Assembly (NCBI RefSeq): GCF_000384155.1
Contig: NZ_KB913031.1
Coordinates: 1,612,001 to 1,676,000 of the forward strand
Source of the DNA: Methylophilus sp. 42
Lineage (GTDB): Bacteria; Pseudomonadota; Gammaproteobacteria; Burkholderiales; Methylophilaceae
Length of the DNA: 64,000 bases
Reading direction: 5' to 3'
Positions within the stretch are counted from its first letter, which is position 1. Every line of letters begins with the position of its first letter. Shown here piece after piece: positions 42,484-47,428 of the stretch. The notes beneath the pieces were generated by a model that was not told the DNA's origin, did not search any database, and was given only the letters and a program-made list of their open reading frames with translations. A program made the translations under genes and the position numbers.

Positions 42484-43197
42484 TTATGGAACGAGTAAAC
42501 CGGGGCTTTTCTGCTCGACTGCCAGAACAAACTCTTTGATAAAGCGCTCTTGCAGCGCATAAGCCTCGCTAGCCTTCTCTTCATCAGAAATCGCTGAAGA
42601 AACCCTGACTAGAATACCATCATCCAGACGTCCTTTAAGTAACCCGTCTTCAATAATTTTTGAGCGCATCTGCAATCCAGATGTCATGGTTCGATCACCA
42701 ACTCGAATCCAGTAACTCACTGCCTCAAGATGGCTCTGACCATAATAGAGCTGCTGCTTACCAATGATTTGTGCATTTTTGCTCAGGTTGGAAAACACTT
42801 TCTCTTTCGACTTGAGCATTTGATAACCTTGCGCCGGATAACAGATATCTGGCTGGTGTATTTTCACATCCTGGCGCTGCTCTTTGGCATAAGCTAGCGC
42901 AACCATGACTTGCTGACCATCCTTGTTTACATAAGTACGCATTAAGGTGTCATCGTACAACTGGTTAATCAGGCTTTTTTCATCACTAACCATACTGACT
43001 TGTGGTGCTGACTGTTGAATCTCCATCCAGTCGTTAATCACGCGTGGAATATTCTCTTCAAAATTGCTCTCATTTTTTGCAAAATGCGCATGTGGTTTTA
43101 GAAACGTTGCTAGCCCTGAAAATACGAGGCTAATTAGCAATAACTGTAGCGCTGATATCAGCTTTACATGTGGTAGTTTGAGGTACAGGTCTTTCAT
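42484..43197 (-). CDS. epsI: EpsI, exosortase-associated protein
   Basis: This encodes 237 residues. One N-terminal membrane helix (about 14-33) leads into a periplasmic EpsI domain: VNKDGQQVMVALAYAKEQRQD, then HQPDICYPAQGYQM with the family's conserved Cys, and VSYWIRVGD. EpsI is sometimes fused to the exosortase C-terminus; here it is separate, eight bases after xrtB. Its exact job in sorting or polymer export is not established. Confidence 0.92.
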   Translation of the reverse strand: MKDLYLKLPHVKLISALQLLLISLVFSGLATFLKPHAHFAKNESNFEENIPRVINDWMEIQQSAPQVSMVSDEKSLINQLYDDTLMRTYVNKDGQQVMVALAYAKEQRQDVKIHQPDICYPAQGYQMLKSKEKVFSNLSKNAQIIGKQQLYYGQSHLEAVSYWIRVGDRTMTSGLQMRSKIIEDGLLKGRLDDGILVRVSSAISDEEKASEAYALQERFIKEFVLAVEQKSPGLLVP

Positions 43198-43205
43198 TGC
43201 TATCG

Positions 43206-44108
43206 CTAATCCTGGCTCAGTAAGCTCTTAATGTTAAATTTTTCAGCAATCTTTTGAATCACGGAATCAATCACGATAATCAAAATGAGTGCAGTCAGAA
43301 AAAGCACCATGCCAGAGAAGTTATGCAAGAAACCCTGCCCTGCTTCGTCGCCCATGTGGTATGTAATCAGTGCCAGTGTGCAAACACGCAGCACATTGGA
43401 TGTAAAAGATACGGGCACAATTAACACTGCCAGTAATACATTGCGCCAGAAGGCCTGATGGTTAATCACATTAATATACAGCAAGCCTATAGCCTCTAAT
43501 GTGAACAAAGAGTTAAGCCCGGCACAGGCATCAGCGACCAGCAGTTTATATTGGCCAATTTGCAGAATTACCCCTGAACGCGCGATCGGGTAATCAAGCG
43601 CATAGAGCAGATGATCGGCAGCATAGGAGACGGCAATCTTCATGGGCTGCGTCAATATATCAATGACTGAGGCTGGCCATGGCATTAAAAATATAAAAAA
43701 GAATAATGCAAACCAATATTTGTAAGCGATTTGCAAGCCAAATAACAGGCAAATCACCCCGCACAATATCAAGACCAGTGACAGGATAGAGAATATATAA
43801 ACGCTTTGCGAATATCCAACAATGTAGATACTGGCGCCAATCAATATTAAAAACCAACCCAATATTGGAGATGGCTTAAAAGACTGAGGCTTTTCTAAAA
43901 TTTGTTTAGTTTTAAAATAAAAAAACCAGATGCCTATGCCCAACACAATCGGGCCGTGTGATTGCGTATCGTTATTCCAAACCGTGGTGAACAAGTCATA
44001 AAAAACGGGTACAAACAGCACAAGGACTGACAGCAGTATTGCCAAGTATCCTAACAGTTTTTGGCGAGTGCCATAGTTGTCAGTCATTGGCAGTGACGAT
44101 AGCGACAT
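43206..44108 (-). CDS. xrtB: Exosortase B
   Basis: This encodes 300 residues with about eight membrane helices. All three catalytic residues of exosortases are visible: Cys195 in VADACAGLNSL, Arg241 in SNVLRV and His262 in FLHNFSG. Exosortases cut PEP-CTERM proteins at the sorting signal after Sec export, as sortases do in Gram-positives. The gene order with EpsD, E, F, G, I and L identifies the B type. The three PEP-CTERM proteins in this window are likely substrates. It is six bases from epsG and nine from epsI. Confidence 0.95.
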   Translation of the reverse strand: MSLSSLPMTDNYGTRQKLLGYLAILLSVLVLFVPVFYDLFTTVWNNDTQSHGPIVLGIGIWFFYFKTKQILEKPQSFKPSPILGWFLILIGASIYIVGYSQSVYIFSILSLVLILCGVICLLFGLQIAYKYWFALFFFIFLMPWPASVIDILTQPMKIAVSYAADHLLYALDYPIARSGVILQIGQYKLLVADACAGLNSLFTLEAIGLLYINVINHQAFWRNVLLAVLIVPVSFTSNVLRVCTLALITYHMGDEAGQGFLHNFSGMVLFLTALILIIVIDSVIQKIAEKFNIKSLLSQD

Positions 44109-44113
44109 ATTAA

Positions 44114-44980
44114 CTAGTCCACATTCAATGCGACTTGCACTTCAATGCCTAACCCACGACAAGTTTCAATCGCATCTTGGGTATCTTTGAAGGTGGTTTT
44201 ATGTTGTTGTGTGGAAATTAACACGCCCCCCACTTTTTTGGCAACAATTTGAGCGTCAGAGGATTCGAGTATAGGGGATGTATCAATAATAATGACATCG
44301 AATTGCTCTGAAAATGTAGCGAGCAGTTCATCAAGTGTATTTTTATTTAGCAACTCTTGCGGATTGGGTGGTACAGCTCCCGCAGTTAACACGCTCAGAT
44401 TGAGCAAAGATGAAATCCTTACGACCACATCAATAGAAGCGCGACCAACCAAGATGTCTGACAAGCCATGATTATTATTGAGTTTAAATAACTTATGTTG
44501 TTGTGGTGATCTCAGGTTGGCATCAATAAGTAAGGTACGTTCACCAAGCTGAGAGAATACCACTGCCAAATTACCTGCAAGGTTACTCACACCATCGCCA
44601 CCTTTGGGTGAGGATATGGCGATGGTTTTAAATCCACGCTCAAACCAGCGTAGCATCAAGTGTGTCCGTAATGAACGCAAAGACTCAACTTGCTTTGAAA
44701 AAGGATCAAAAGCGGCCACAAGGGTGTTGCTAAAAGAAGTTTTTTCCGGCGTTAAATACGGATAATCGAACTGATAGGATAAAGCTTGATTGATATCTTC
44801 CATCGTAACAAAGCCCAATGCCAGTGCCGCCTCTCCAAAGCGCATAGACTTTTCTTTCTGGAATTTCAATATGCGCTCAGCGTCTTTATCCGTGATTTTC
44901 CCCATATCAAGCAAGAGGTGCCCAATACTGGAAGACACCGTTTTCAACGGCGCTTTGTTTTCTGTTTCAATAATATTCAT
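44114..44980 (-). CDS. epsG: EpsG, BY-kinase-like chain-length regulator with N-terminal MshEN-type domain
   Basis: This encodes 288 residues. Residues 18-41 and 47-70 form two 24-residue motifs with a five-residue spacer, matching the two-motif MshEN c-di-GMP-binding layout: motif 2 runs RFGEAALALGFV to LSYQ, while motif 1 has Ser in place of Arg at position 1. A BY-kinase domain follows. Walker A' is TLLIDANLRSP and Walker B is FDVIIIDTSP, but Walker A reads SPKGGDGVSN with Val131 where Lys is expected. No tyrosine-rich tail is present. It pairs with EpsF (46 bp upstream) to form the Wzc-like unit that sets polymer length. Whether it still hydrolyses ATP or phosphorylates is open. Confidence 0.92.
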   Translation of the reverse strand: MNIIETENKAPLKTVSSSIGHLLLDMGKITDKDAERILKFQKEKSMRFGEAALALGFVTMEDINQALSYQFDYPYLTPEKTSFSNTLVAAFDPFSKQVESLRSLRTHLMLRWFERGFKTIAISSPKGGDGVSNLAGNLAVVFSQLGERTLLIDANLRSPQQHKLFKLNNNHGLSDILVGRASIDVVVRISSLLNLSVLTAGAVPPNPQELLNKNTLDELLATFSEQFDVIIIDTSPILESSDAQIVAKKVGGVLISTQQHKTTFKDTQDAIETCRGLGIEVQVALNVD

Positions 44981-45026: not shown

Positions 45027-46382
45027 TTAGGCGGTTTTGATACTGTATTCATAAACTGGAATTTCACCCAATGAAAGGATGTCATCTTTACTGCGCACGC
45101 GGCGATCCAAAAACTCGGCCACTAACGCAAAAAAACAGCCTAGCATTGTGCCTACAATCAGTGAGAATGGAATAATCAGCAGTAAACTCGGGTTGTTAGG
45201 TGAGGATGGCGGTGTAGCCGTTTCCAATACGGCAATATCCGCTTGATTTGATTGGCCCTCTAATATGGTCTGACTGAAGCGGTTATTGACAGAGGCGAGT
45301 GCATTTTGAGCGATTTCAACCTCTTTCTCCATAATTGAAAGTTCTGAGCGGGATCTGTTTAACGTCAGTACTTTTTGTTTTTGGCGTTCCAATTGTGTTT
45401 TAACATCACCTAAACGCTGAGAGTTAATATTTGCACTGTTACTCAAACCAACAACAGTCCTGTCAATTTCTGTTTGCAGCTGGCTTCTGAGTTTTGAGGC
45501 CTCGGCTTCGGCAGCAATGTAGGATGGATGGTTTTTGCTATATCGCTGGCCCATTTCGGCCAGTTTTGACTCGGCCGTGACTAGGTTTACTCGCAAATTC
45601 TGGATGATGGGGTTGAGCGCAACATCAGGTGAGTCGCTCATATTTTTTGCGGCATCGTTTCTTCTAGAGTTGGCGTCTATTGATTGCGATTGCATCAAAC
45701 TATACTGAGTGGATAAGTCCCTTAATTTAGAGCTCTCCACATCGTAAGTATCTAATATACTCGTCAACCCATGCTCCTGTTGATAGTTTGAAAGTTTTTC
45801 CTGAGCTTTCTGCAAGTTATCACGTAATACTTTGGTTTGCTCAGACAAATAATGTGAGGCTTTAATCGCTGGGTCCATCTTTAACTTCAGGCTTACATTG
45901 ATATAGGATTCAGCGAATGCATTTGCCATCGTTGCTGCAAATGTAGGCTCTACACCTTTATAGGAAATGTTAATGACACTACTCTCCCTTGAAGGTGTTA
46001 CATCCAATTTGCTAGATAAGCGATCAGCTAACCAGTCGACAATGTCCGATTTAACATTGCCACTCTTAGTGGCATTGGCGTAGTCACGCTTGATAGAGTC
46101 TATTTCTATCAGATTTAAATGCTTAACTACATCAACTGCTACATTCTTACTTTTAATAATGTCAATTTGAGTACCCATATAGCCTGGTAATAATTGAGCC
46201 GGCATGGATACGCCAGTCACTGGATCTACCCCTTTGTAGTTAAGCAGTACTGTCGCTGTCGCTAAAAAGTTTTTCGGCAGCAGCATGCTCACTGTCACTG
46301 CTGTCAGTAAAGTAATCACCGCTACCAGTAAGATGATGTAACGTCGAACTTTTAAGATTATTGCTAGTTGTAAAAAATTCAT
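45027..46382 (-). CDS. epsF: EpsF, chain-length determinant (Wzz-type) protein
   Basis: This encodes 451 residues. TM1 is at about 15-36 and TM2 at about 405-427 (LLLIIPFSLIVGTMLGCFFALVAE), with a long periplasmic coiled-coil between them (about 180-380). PPSSPNNPSLLL before TM2 is the proline-rich Wzz motif. It is the polysaccharide co-polymerase partner of EpsG and sets chain length and links to the outer-membrane channel EpsE. Confidence 0.93.
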   Translation of the reverse strand: MNFLQLAIILKVRRYIILLVAVITLLTAVTVSMLLPKNFLATATVLLNYKGVDPVTGVSMPAQLLPGYMGTQIDIIKSKNVAVDVVKHLNLIEIDSIKRDYANATKSGNVKSDIVDWLADRLSSKLDVTPSRESSVINISYKGVEPTFAATMANAFAESYINVSLKLKMDPAIKASHYLSEQTKVLRDNLQKAQEKLSNYQQEHGLTSILDTYDVESSKLRDLSTQYSLMQSQSIDANSRRNDAAKNMSDSPDVALNPIIQNLRVNLVTAESKLAEMGQRYSKNHPSYIAAEAEASKLRSQLQTEIDRTVVGLSNSANINSQRLGDVKTQLERQKQKVLTLNRSRSELSIMEKEVEIAQNALASVNNRFSQTILEGQSNQADIAVLETATPPSSPNNPSLLLIIPFSLIVGTMLGCFFALVAEFLDRRVRSKDDILSLGEIPVYEYSIKTA

Positions 46383-46399: not shown

Positions 46400-47428
46400 T
46401 TAAAGCAAACTTTCTTCGATGAACAACACATCTTCGTCCATCAGGGTGCTTGTGAGATCGGATGATTGTTTGACCAATGCGCCTTCCGCATTTTTACGAT
46501 GCAACTTCACTGAACGTTGTGTTCCACGTACGGTTAAACCGCCTGCTTTTGCAATTGCTTGCATTATCGTCATATTCTTATCAATCTTGTACATGCCAGG
46601 GCGTTGTACTTCACCATAAATGTAAACTTGCGGCGCTTTGGGAATATAAACGACATCACCAGGCGTGAGCTCTTTATTTAATTCACTGGCAGGAGATCTA
46701 AACAAGTCATCGATATTGATCTCCTGAGTAACTGCCGTGCCAGATCGAGAGGTCGTAAAAAACAACGTTTCGCCAGCTGTTTCGTTTGCACCGCCAGCCA
46801 ATGCGACGAAATCACTAATTTTACGCGTACCTCCTTGAATGCCGTATTTACCTGGTCTCAATACCTGACCAGCAACAGCCACATCGCGCACACTAATATA
46901 AACGGTCTCTCCACCAACCAATCCTAGATCTTGCACATTCAAATTACGATGCTCAATCACTTCATTCAAATCATATTCGCTACGTTTTTCACCGCGCACT
47001 ACAGTGATAATTTCTGAGGCTTCAGAGGTTAAACCACCAGCTTCCGCGAGAATATCTTTCACATCAGTTGGGTGCGTGATGGGATATCTGCCAGGTTTAA
47101 GGACACCACCCAATACAGAGACTGTTTTGCTTTTAAACTCGAGAATTAACACCGAAACCTGAGGATTGGCAATAAAGCCGCCACGTTTCAATTGCTCTGC
47201 AATTCTTTTTTCCGCTTGAATGGTAGTTAAACCACCTACACCAACCTCACCAATTAAAGGTAGTGTAATTTCACCAGTTTCAGCTACTCGCGTTTCCCGC
47301 GTTAAATCAGCATCGCCATATACAACTATTCTAAGAGAGTCCCCTGCACCGAGCGTATAGTCTGCATGGGCTAACGCACTAAACAGCGTAAACACCGCTA
47401 CTAATAAATATTTAAAATATCGCGTCAT
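46400..47428 (-). CDS. epsE: EpsE, polysaccharide export protein (Wza-like)
   Basis: This encodes 342 residues. A signal peptide (about 1-22, ending AHA) precedes the poly_export motif DYTLGAGDSLRIVVYGD and several SLBB domains (SVLGGVLKPGRYPI, AVAGQVLRPGKYGIQ, YIYGEVQRPGMYKID). It forms the outer-membrane or periplasmic export channel for the polymer, working with EpsF/EpsG. It is 17 bases upstream of epsF. Confidence 0.93.
   Translation of the reverse strand: MTRYFKYLLVAVFTLFSALAHADYTLGAGDSLRIVVYGDADLTRETRVAETGEITLPLIGEVGVGGLTTIQAEKRIAEQLKRGGFIANPQVSVLILEFKSKTVSVLGGVLKPGRYPITHPTDVKDILAEAGGLTSEASEIITVVRGEKRSEYDLNEVIEHRNLNVQDLGLVGGETVYISVRDVAVAGQVLRPGKYGIQGGTRKISDFVALAGGANETAGETLFFTTSRSGTAVTQEINIDDLFRSPASELNKELTPGDVVYIPKAPQVYIYGEVQRPGMYKIDKNMTIMQAIAKAGGLTVRGTQRSVKLHRKNAEGALVKQSSDLTSTLMDEDVLFIEESLL

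Follow-up and report, generated by a model that had tools for sequence, protein, structure and literature searches.

EpsG of Methylophilus sp. 42, a BY-kinase-like protein with an MshEN-type motif, putative c-di-GMP binding and no Walker A lysine

Described systems and the eps locus

The accepted view of Wzy-type polysaccharide export is that BY-kinases drive it by cycles of phosphorylation. In Wzc, the unphosphorylated protein is an octamer that is held together by the tyrosine tail and broken by progressive phosphorylation of this tail, and the kinase-dead variant K540M is octameric (PMC8285477, available extracts). For EcpK of Myxococcus and HfsB of Caulobacter, on the other hand, it has been proposed that they act on their PCP-2 partners by binding, without phosphorylation (extracts of PMC12004946). 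A direct input of c-di-GMP into exopolysaccharide production through an MshEN domain is described for the E. coli glycosyltransferase NfrB (PMC8669469, in the extracts at hand).

With VcMshE (PDB ID: 5HTL; NCBIfam model NF053729), EpsG of Methylophilus sp. 42 has in common two 24-residue motifs with a five-residue spacer, the Gly and Gln contact residues and four predicted helices. It differs from VcMshE in the four residues named in Table 1 and in having no match to the C-subdomain, and its motif is fused to a BY-kinase-like domain, whereas that of MshE is fused to a secretion ATPase. The fold of Wzc and CapB (PDB IDs: 3LA6 and 4JMP) and their EX2RX2R motif are found in EpsG as well, but these two proteins are active autokinases with the lysine and a tyrosine tail. 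Like EcpK and HfsB, EpsG is a stand-alone protein of the BY-kinase fold without catalytic lysine and tyrosine tail that has a kinase-less PCP-2 partner, and its inactivity is predicted. Unlike EcpK, in which all three Walker motifs are lost (PMC12004946, in part), EpsG keeps Asp153 and the Walker B Asp233 and has the MshEN-type motif; the paper on EcpK (PMC12004946), in its main text as available, contains none of the words MshEN, c-di-GMP and EpsG. The likeness to NfrB lies in MshEN as a direct c-di-GMP input, with binding putative in EpsG, but NfrB is the synthase itself, whereas the target of EpsG would be the co-polymerase in Wzy-type export.

The initial annotation proposed that c-di-GMP, and not autophosphorylation, may set chain length, so that EpsG would feed this signal directly into exopolysaccharide assembly; the idea stands as a proposal and has a forerunner. 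The discussion of a 2016 paper on MshEN lists exopolysaccharide biosynthesis of a Methylobacillus sp. among the MshEN cases, citing the methanolan paper, and the name EpsG is not found in its main text as available (PMC5013675). MshEN in a Methylobacillus exopolysaccharide protein had thus already been mentioned, BY pseudokinases were known, and what seems to be new is their combination. No paper bringing the two together was among the matches listed in a search of the open-licence literature, mostly of titles and abstract openings, and because of this scope the evidence for novelty is weak. Expression data exist for an epsG gene of Herbaspirillum that is said to code for a glucosyltransferase (extracts of PMC4195743); this may be another epsG or a misassigned one.

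The window, that is, the whole stretch of DNA analysed, comprises 64,000 nucleotides of a genome that consists of one contig of 2.97 Mb. The coordinates originally given for epsG were correct (Table 1); the strand, which had been left unstated, is minus, and the plus strand is riddled with stops. The gene belongs to an exopolysaccharide cluster of the exosortase-B type that lies entirely on the minus strand, with epsL, epsD, epsE and, beside epsG, epsF upstream, and with xrtB and epsI downstream. The B-type EpsI match (42484-43197, minus strand) reaches 198 bits, below its 220-bit cut-off, and adjoins the clear exosortase B. EpsG scores 360.4 bits with the EpsG family model TIGR03029 (cut-off 313.8 bits). 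Since this match begins with model position 2 at residue 16, the MshEN region is part of the family model, and EpsG shares the full-length match of a family that is named as a tyrosine kinase. The family name presumably derives from EpsG of Methylobacillus sp. 12S. Proteins above the TIGR03029 cut-off occur in 50 of the 150 genomes searched in the family, in 8 of 369 at the level of the class and in 5 of 398 at that of the phylum, and the closest relative among the loci from named genomes is in Methylophilus sp. 14 (84% identity).

The Pfam matches listed for the partner EpsF are to Wzz and GNVR domains, with no P-loop family among them. It was found at 64 of 66 loci with an MshEN-bearing EpsG, always upstream and on the same strand, and no more than 270 bases away in 62 of the 64; the two loci where it was not found (L085 and L103) lie on contigs, 3.8 and 3.2 kb long, whose first bases come just before epsG. 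EpsE is present at 54 of the 66 loci. XrtB was found at 38 of them within the limited flank, and an obligatory link to XrtB is thus unsupported. GGDEF domains gave 46 matches in the source genome.

Table 1. Positions of epsG, its parts and its neighbours within the window
Feature	Position	Strand	Details
epsG	44114..44980	-	288 aa; ATG at 44980, stop 44116-44114
MshEN-type two-motif region (putative c-di-GMP binding), residues 18-70	44771..44929	-	NF053729; profile and fold match to MshE 5HTL
Motif 1, residues 18-41	44858..44929	-	Ser18, Lys28, Ala34 for MshE Arg9, Ile19, Leu25
Motif 2, residues 47-70	44771..44842	-	Phe48 for MshE Leu39; Phe in 66/67 homologues
BY-kinase-like P-loop domain, about residues 84-286	44123..44731	-	AlphaFold2 pLDDT 92.8, pTM 0.85
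EX2RX2R, residues 99-105	44666..44686	-	E 66, R 67, R 66 of 67
Degenerate Walker A SPKGGDGVSN, residues 124-133	44582..44611	-	Val131 for Lys
Walker A' LLIDANLR, residues 150-157	44510..44533	-	Asp153 kept, Asn155 for Asp
epsF, polysaccharide co-polymerase partner	45027..46382	-	TIGR03017 521 bits; Pfam Wzz and GNVR
xrtB, exosortase B	43206..44108	-	TIGR03113 332 bits
epsE, polysaccharide export protein	46400..47428	-	TIGR03028

The N-terminal MshEN-type region

Residues 18-41 (SIGHLLLDMGKITDKDAERILKFQ) and 47-70 (RFGEAALALGFVTMEDINQALSYQ) form the two motifs as the initial annotation had described them, each of 24 residues with a five-residue spacer between them, with Gly at positions 3 and 10 and a terminal Gln, and with Ser opening motif 1 and Arg opening motif 2. 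Positions 3 and 24 of the two motifs correspond to G20 and Q41 and to G49 and Q70. A two-motif pattern, written and loosened with the EpsG sequence already known, had one match in the 37,561 residues of six-frame segments of at least 60 residues in the window and none in 300 shuffles. The model NF053729 matched residues 19-70 with 44.1 bits (cut-off 38), or 46.9 bits in a search of the whole genome, where at E ≤0.001 it had three matches, EpsG and two secretion ATPase frames of 574 and 581 residues. A profile of 67 EpsG N-termini aligned in register with MshE 5HTL (E 8.6e-11) and matched PilF and PilB domains too; with the single EpsG sequence, full-length PilF was found at E 1.9e-6 and MshE at E 0.0029. 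The predicted N-terminal domain has four helices and a mean pLDDT of 79.3, with values of at least 87 in all blocks across residues 21-70. Its top Foldseek match was 5HTL, the structure of MshE with c-di-GMP (rmsd 1.9 over 59 columns), and ranks 1-16 were all of the GSPII/MshEN type, with no E-value below 0.001 for this small domain. The relaxed motif published in 2016 (PMC5013675, in part) is fitted by motif 2, and motif 1 fails it at Ser18 and Lys28; the region is therefore labelled MshEN-type and not a proven MshEN receptor. The earlier reading as MshEN is thus favoured by profile, fold and conservation pattern, but motif 1 is weaker than had been suggested. Judged by sequence and structural model, the assignment of residues 18-70 as an MshEN-type motif is supported, and c-di-GMP binding is putative.

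A Pfam search for MshEN had been named as a check of this reading. EpsG gave no match to PF05157 even at E up to 10, and none of 51 EpsG rows was matched at E ≤0.01. The result is a false negative for EpsG, because the model covers only the part that follows the motif. In the PilB-like ATPase of the same genome PF05157 matches residues 67-154, directly after the motif, and the NF053729 match stops one base before PF05157 starts. At G000:C1:643089-643511 (L001, L169), NF053729 and PF05157, both MshE-related, lie on adjacent, non-overlapping halves. In the source genome PF05157 has six matches, compared with the three of NF053729. PF05157 models the C-subdomain, which is missing from EpsG, and it was discarded as a test of the motif. 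NCBIfam has separate models for the motif (NF053729) and for the family (TIGR03029). For binding of c-di-GMP the N-subdomain alone suffices (PMC5013675, available part), and surveys by PF05157 alone will overlook short MshEN-type proteins like EpsG.

Conservation was assessed in an alignment (A3) of 67 rows, consisting of EpsG from the window and 66 of 80 loci from named genomes; left out were 13 loci without MshEN and L131, the motif 1 of which is degenerate, without Gly at position 3 and without the final Gln. NF053729 matched at E ≤0.001 in all 67 rows and in 49 of 51 EpsG rows of another set. The fusion, for which the initial annotation had called for a survey of XrtB-linked EpsG proteins, is a trait of the family. 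G20, G49 and Q70, equivalent to MshE Gly11, Gly40 and Gln61, are invariant in the 67 rows, and Q41, equivalent to Gln32, is present in 63. The four positions rank 1, 2, 3 and 6 of 53 for conservation; their mean entropy is 0.10 bits, and the remaining 49 positions average 1.89. In MshE these four residues make backbone and side-chain hydrogen bonds to c-di-GMP (PMC5013675, in part). When MshE Arg9, Asp12 or Gln32 is changed singly, the cost is about fivefold at most (same extracts of PMC5013675), and a conserved Gln is therefore no proof of tight binding.

Other positions have changed. At the position of Arg9, 32 of the 67 rows have Ser and 8 have Arg; at that of Leu25 (motif 1 position 17), 33 have Ala and 5 have Leu; and at that of Leu39 Phe is almost universal (Table 1). 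The relaxed motif is met by motif 1 in 2 of the 67 rows, by motif 2 in 36 and by both in one, and at the sequence level the EpsG family deviates from the published 2016 pattern in a constant manner. At the positions of Arg9, Leu25 and Leu39 the first-guanine site is altered, and a Phe beside a small residue could replace the leucine stack there. At motif 1 position 11, 55 of the 67 rows have Lys, Arg or Asn. The non-binder XpsE has Arg at this position, among several changes (PMC5013675, in part), and PilF GSPII-C, which according to the available extracts of PMC11731258 binds c-di-GMP about like MshE, has Lys there in the profile alignment. With Lys or Leu as the opener of motif I, binding by PilF GSPII-B is reported at 6 or 2 nM (PMC11731258, in part), and a reconstructed PilF GSPII-A no longer bound when motif II opened with Ser in place of Arg (extract of PMC12002112).

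These deviations bear on a reading in which MshEN is a retained fold that serves as a non-binding docking surface, with EpsG being simply a BY-pseudokinase scaffold of the EcpK or HfsB type. Motif 1 is off MshE Arg9, Ile19 and Leu25 throughout the family, as the low counts of an Arg opener, of Leu at position 17 and of the relaxed motif indicate, and XpsE-like MshEN domains are known to have lost binding (PMC5013675, available part). Yet XpsE lost several of the contact residues themselves (G11V, G40L and Q61V), while their equivalents are among the most conserved positions of EpsG, and docking alone predicts no invariance of ligand contacts. A docking role is accordingly judged unlikely, with a real chance nonetheless of being correct.

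The kinase half and its evolution

The kinase half of EpsG carries EX2RX2R, which we take to be the oligomerisation motif of CapB. Its predicted structure superimposes on Wzc 3LA6 with an rmsd of 1.3 over 204 columns, and CapB 4JMP was matched as well. A Val at the Lys position of Walker A and the lack of a Tyr-rich tail had been pointed out at the outset, and both hold; the only Tyr residues are at 69, 73 and 75, with none after residue 75. Position 155 is Asn in EpsG and Asp in 31 of 32 Lys-bearing MshEN-less kinases. The score with TIGR01007, the model of the active BY-kinase type, is 144.9 bits versus a cut-off of 108.05, with both the Walker A Lys and the C-terminal Tyr cluster missing, and no second protein of the source genome lies above this cut-off. 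From the sequence, the kinase chemistry of EpsG looks lost, as the Walker A Lys is missing, the kinase domain and tail contain no Tyr, and the genome has no other protein above the TIGR01007 cut-off. That Lys126 of the KGG stretch stands in for the missing Lys was ruled out, as Lys is found there in 2 of 67 rows only. PDB titles record Wzc-K540M with MgADP, and loss of the Lys alone is therefore no sign of lost nucleotide binding.

The traits that the initial annotation had singled out in EpsG are real, but they are no peculiarity of one protein and are what EpsG proteins usually show. Of the 67 A3 rows, 56 lack the Walker A Lys and 11 keep it, and Arg takes its place in 31. The Lys is likewise missing in 45 of 49 motif-aligned rows of a set of 50 relatives and in 5 of 5 further relatives; the fiftieth relative, L056, has neither the motif nor the Lys. 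For comparison, 33 MshEN-less BY-kinases were taken, 13 of them from the named genomes and the other 20 from within the same bacterial family; 32 have the Lys and 31 a Tyr tail, defined as at least two Tyr beyond the point aligned to residue 276. By the same definition no tail was found in any of 96 MshEN-labelled rows, 95 of which truly carry MshEN. The A3 rows end a few residues past the domain, and in MshEN-bearing rows up to 40 further residues show no Tyr cluster; within the last 30 residues of the 67 rows there is no Tyr in 50, one in 15 and two in 2. The closest control comes from the MshEN-less kinases of the same bacterial family: fifteen stand-alone ones, taken from their sequences as the putative XrtA-associated type, carry GKS or GKT, and their last residues are YY or YYY. 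The name tyrosine kinase of TIGR03029 is at variance with EpsG here and with most surveyed relatives, which lack the Walker A Lys, and with the MshEN-labelled rows, which lack the tail.

EpsG could still be an active ATPase or kinase in which Arg or another residue replaces the Lys and which phosphorylates another protein. Much of the active site is indeed retained across the 67 rows (Gly130 in 64, Ser or Thr132 in 63, Asp153 in 67 and the Walker B Asp233 in 63), and the frequent Arg, the Lys kept in some rows and the NCBIfam name fit such activity. In the present protein, however, Val131 is combined with Asn155 and the kinase domain and tail are free of Tyr, and residue 131 differs even between near relatives, being Ala in L036 (80% identical) and L063 (84%). 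Retained catalysis is for these reasons considered improbable.

Residues 131 and 155 vary together. Where position 131 is neither Lys nor Arg, position 155 is Asn in 22 of 25 rows, and where it is Lys or Arg, position 155 is Asp in 39 of 42; the coupling is strong in these counts and not significant across independent pairs. An LMW-PTP neighbour as a trace of a lost phosphotyrosine cycle was also considered, with an LMW-PTP signature used for the neighbour search. The signature was found at none of the 66 loci with MshEN-EpsG. It is missing from the other 14 loci too, and its absence is therefore uninformative; one LMW-PTP-like gene lies in the source genome, far from the eps cluster.

In a quick tree, in which 58 of 125 inner branches have a support below 80, a single branch with a support of 98 separates the MshEN-labelled kinases from the rest, L056 being wrongly labelled as MshEN. 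To thin the tree, 21 of the set of 50 relatives were removed by hand; the loci come from two collections that may share genomes, and the tree shows no difference between L053 and L121. Because this one branch divides the labels, the gain of MshEN and the loss of the tail can be counted only once, as a joint event. The Lys state changed at least six times across the tree, and a comparison by independent pairs for co-evolution of MshEN gain and Lys loss yielded one pair only. The Lys is kept in 15 of the 95 MshEN-bearing tree rows, all without a tail, and 10 of these belong to one Rubrivivax-Rhizobacter clade.

The members of this clade (L108, L109, L112-L115, L118, L119, L122 and L124) have MshEN-EpsG with GKS or GKT and no Tyr tail, and they are a possible intermediate stage. 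L056 (G309), a frame of 257 residues, is an EpsG-like pseudokinase without MshEN that stands beside MshEN-bearing rows (support 81), perhaps after a secondary loss of MshEN. L162 (G096), a frame of 659 residues on a very long branch, is BY-kinase-like with Val at the Walker A Lys position, no Tyr cluster and no MshEN. As L056 without the motif, L131 with its degenerate motif and the MshEN-less L162 all lack the Lys, its loss does not need MshEN. One acquisition of MshEN in the EpsG clade may have swapped a phosphotyrosine switch for a c-di-GMP switch, after which the kinase site would have decayed in two grades, one charged (Lys or Arg131 with Asp155) and one neutral (Val, Ala, Cys, Ser, Thr or Ile131 with Asn155). 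The clade would then be a class of PCP-2 systems that works independently of phosphorylation. This history is put forward tentatively, as a possibility that is open to considerable doubt.

Proposed control of EpsF by c-di-GMP

The preferred reading, held to be somewhat probable, is that EpsG is a BY-pseudokinase partner of EpsF that is switched by c-di-GMP, with putative binding, predicted inactivity and presumed control of EpsF. It is based on predicted fold, motif, conservation, family-wide co-occurrence and gene neighbourhood. EpsG would be a cytoplasmic protein that pairs with the co-polymerase EpsF in export of the Wzx/Wzy type. It retains the predicted BY-kinase fold, EX2RX2R and the first Walker A' Asp, while the Walker A Lys, the second Asp of Walker A' and the Tyr tail are gone. 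In place of tyrosine phosphorylation, c-di-GMP would bind to the four-helix MshEN bundle, a 53-residue N-terminal receptor. Binding would make the EpsG/EpsF complex switch between assembly and disassembly, and the state of the complex would set polymerisation and export. Since EpsG is without the tail that holds the Wzc octamer together, its assembly must differ from that of Wzc, and as a natural counterpart of K540M without the tail it should be unable to run the Wzc cycle. In the model for EcpK and HfsB the driver is left open, and MshEN may offer one in the form of c-di-GMP.

A further possibility is that c-di-GMP tunes the stability, location or membrane recruitment of EpsG and not EpsF assembly or chain length. 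HfsB affects the stability of HfsA in Caulobacter (PMC12004946, in part), and everything said here about chain length derives from sequence and predicted structure. The adjacency of EpsF and the homology to BY-kinases favour direct action on the co-polymerase, and an effect limited to stability or location is given only a small chance.

If c-di-GMP does switch EpsG as a pseudokinase partner of EpsF, the main biofilm signal would be coupled directly to polymer assembly in a proteobacterial family, and this would tell what drives co-polymerases of the pseudokinase type, a point raised by the work on EcpK. The family name "tyrosine kinase" would then need correcting, and if the tentative history of one MshEN acquisition is also true, many annotated tyrosine kinases would be c-di-GMP receptors.
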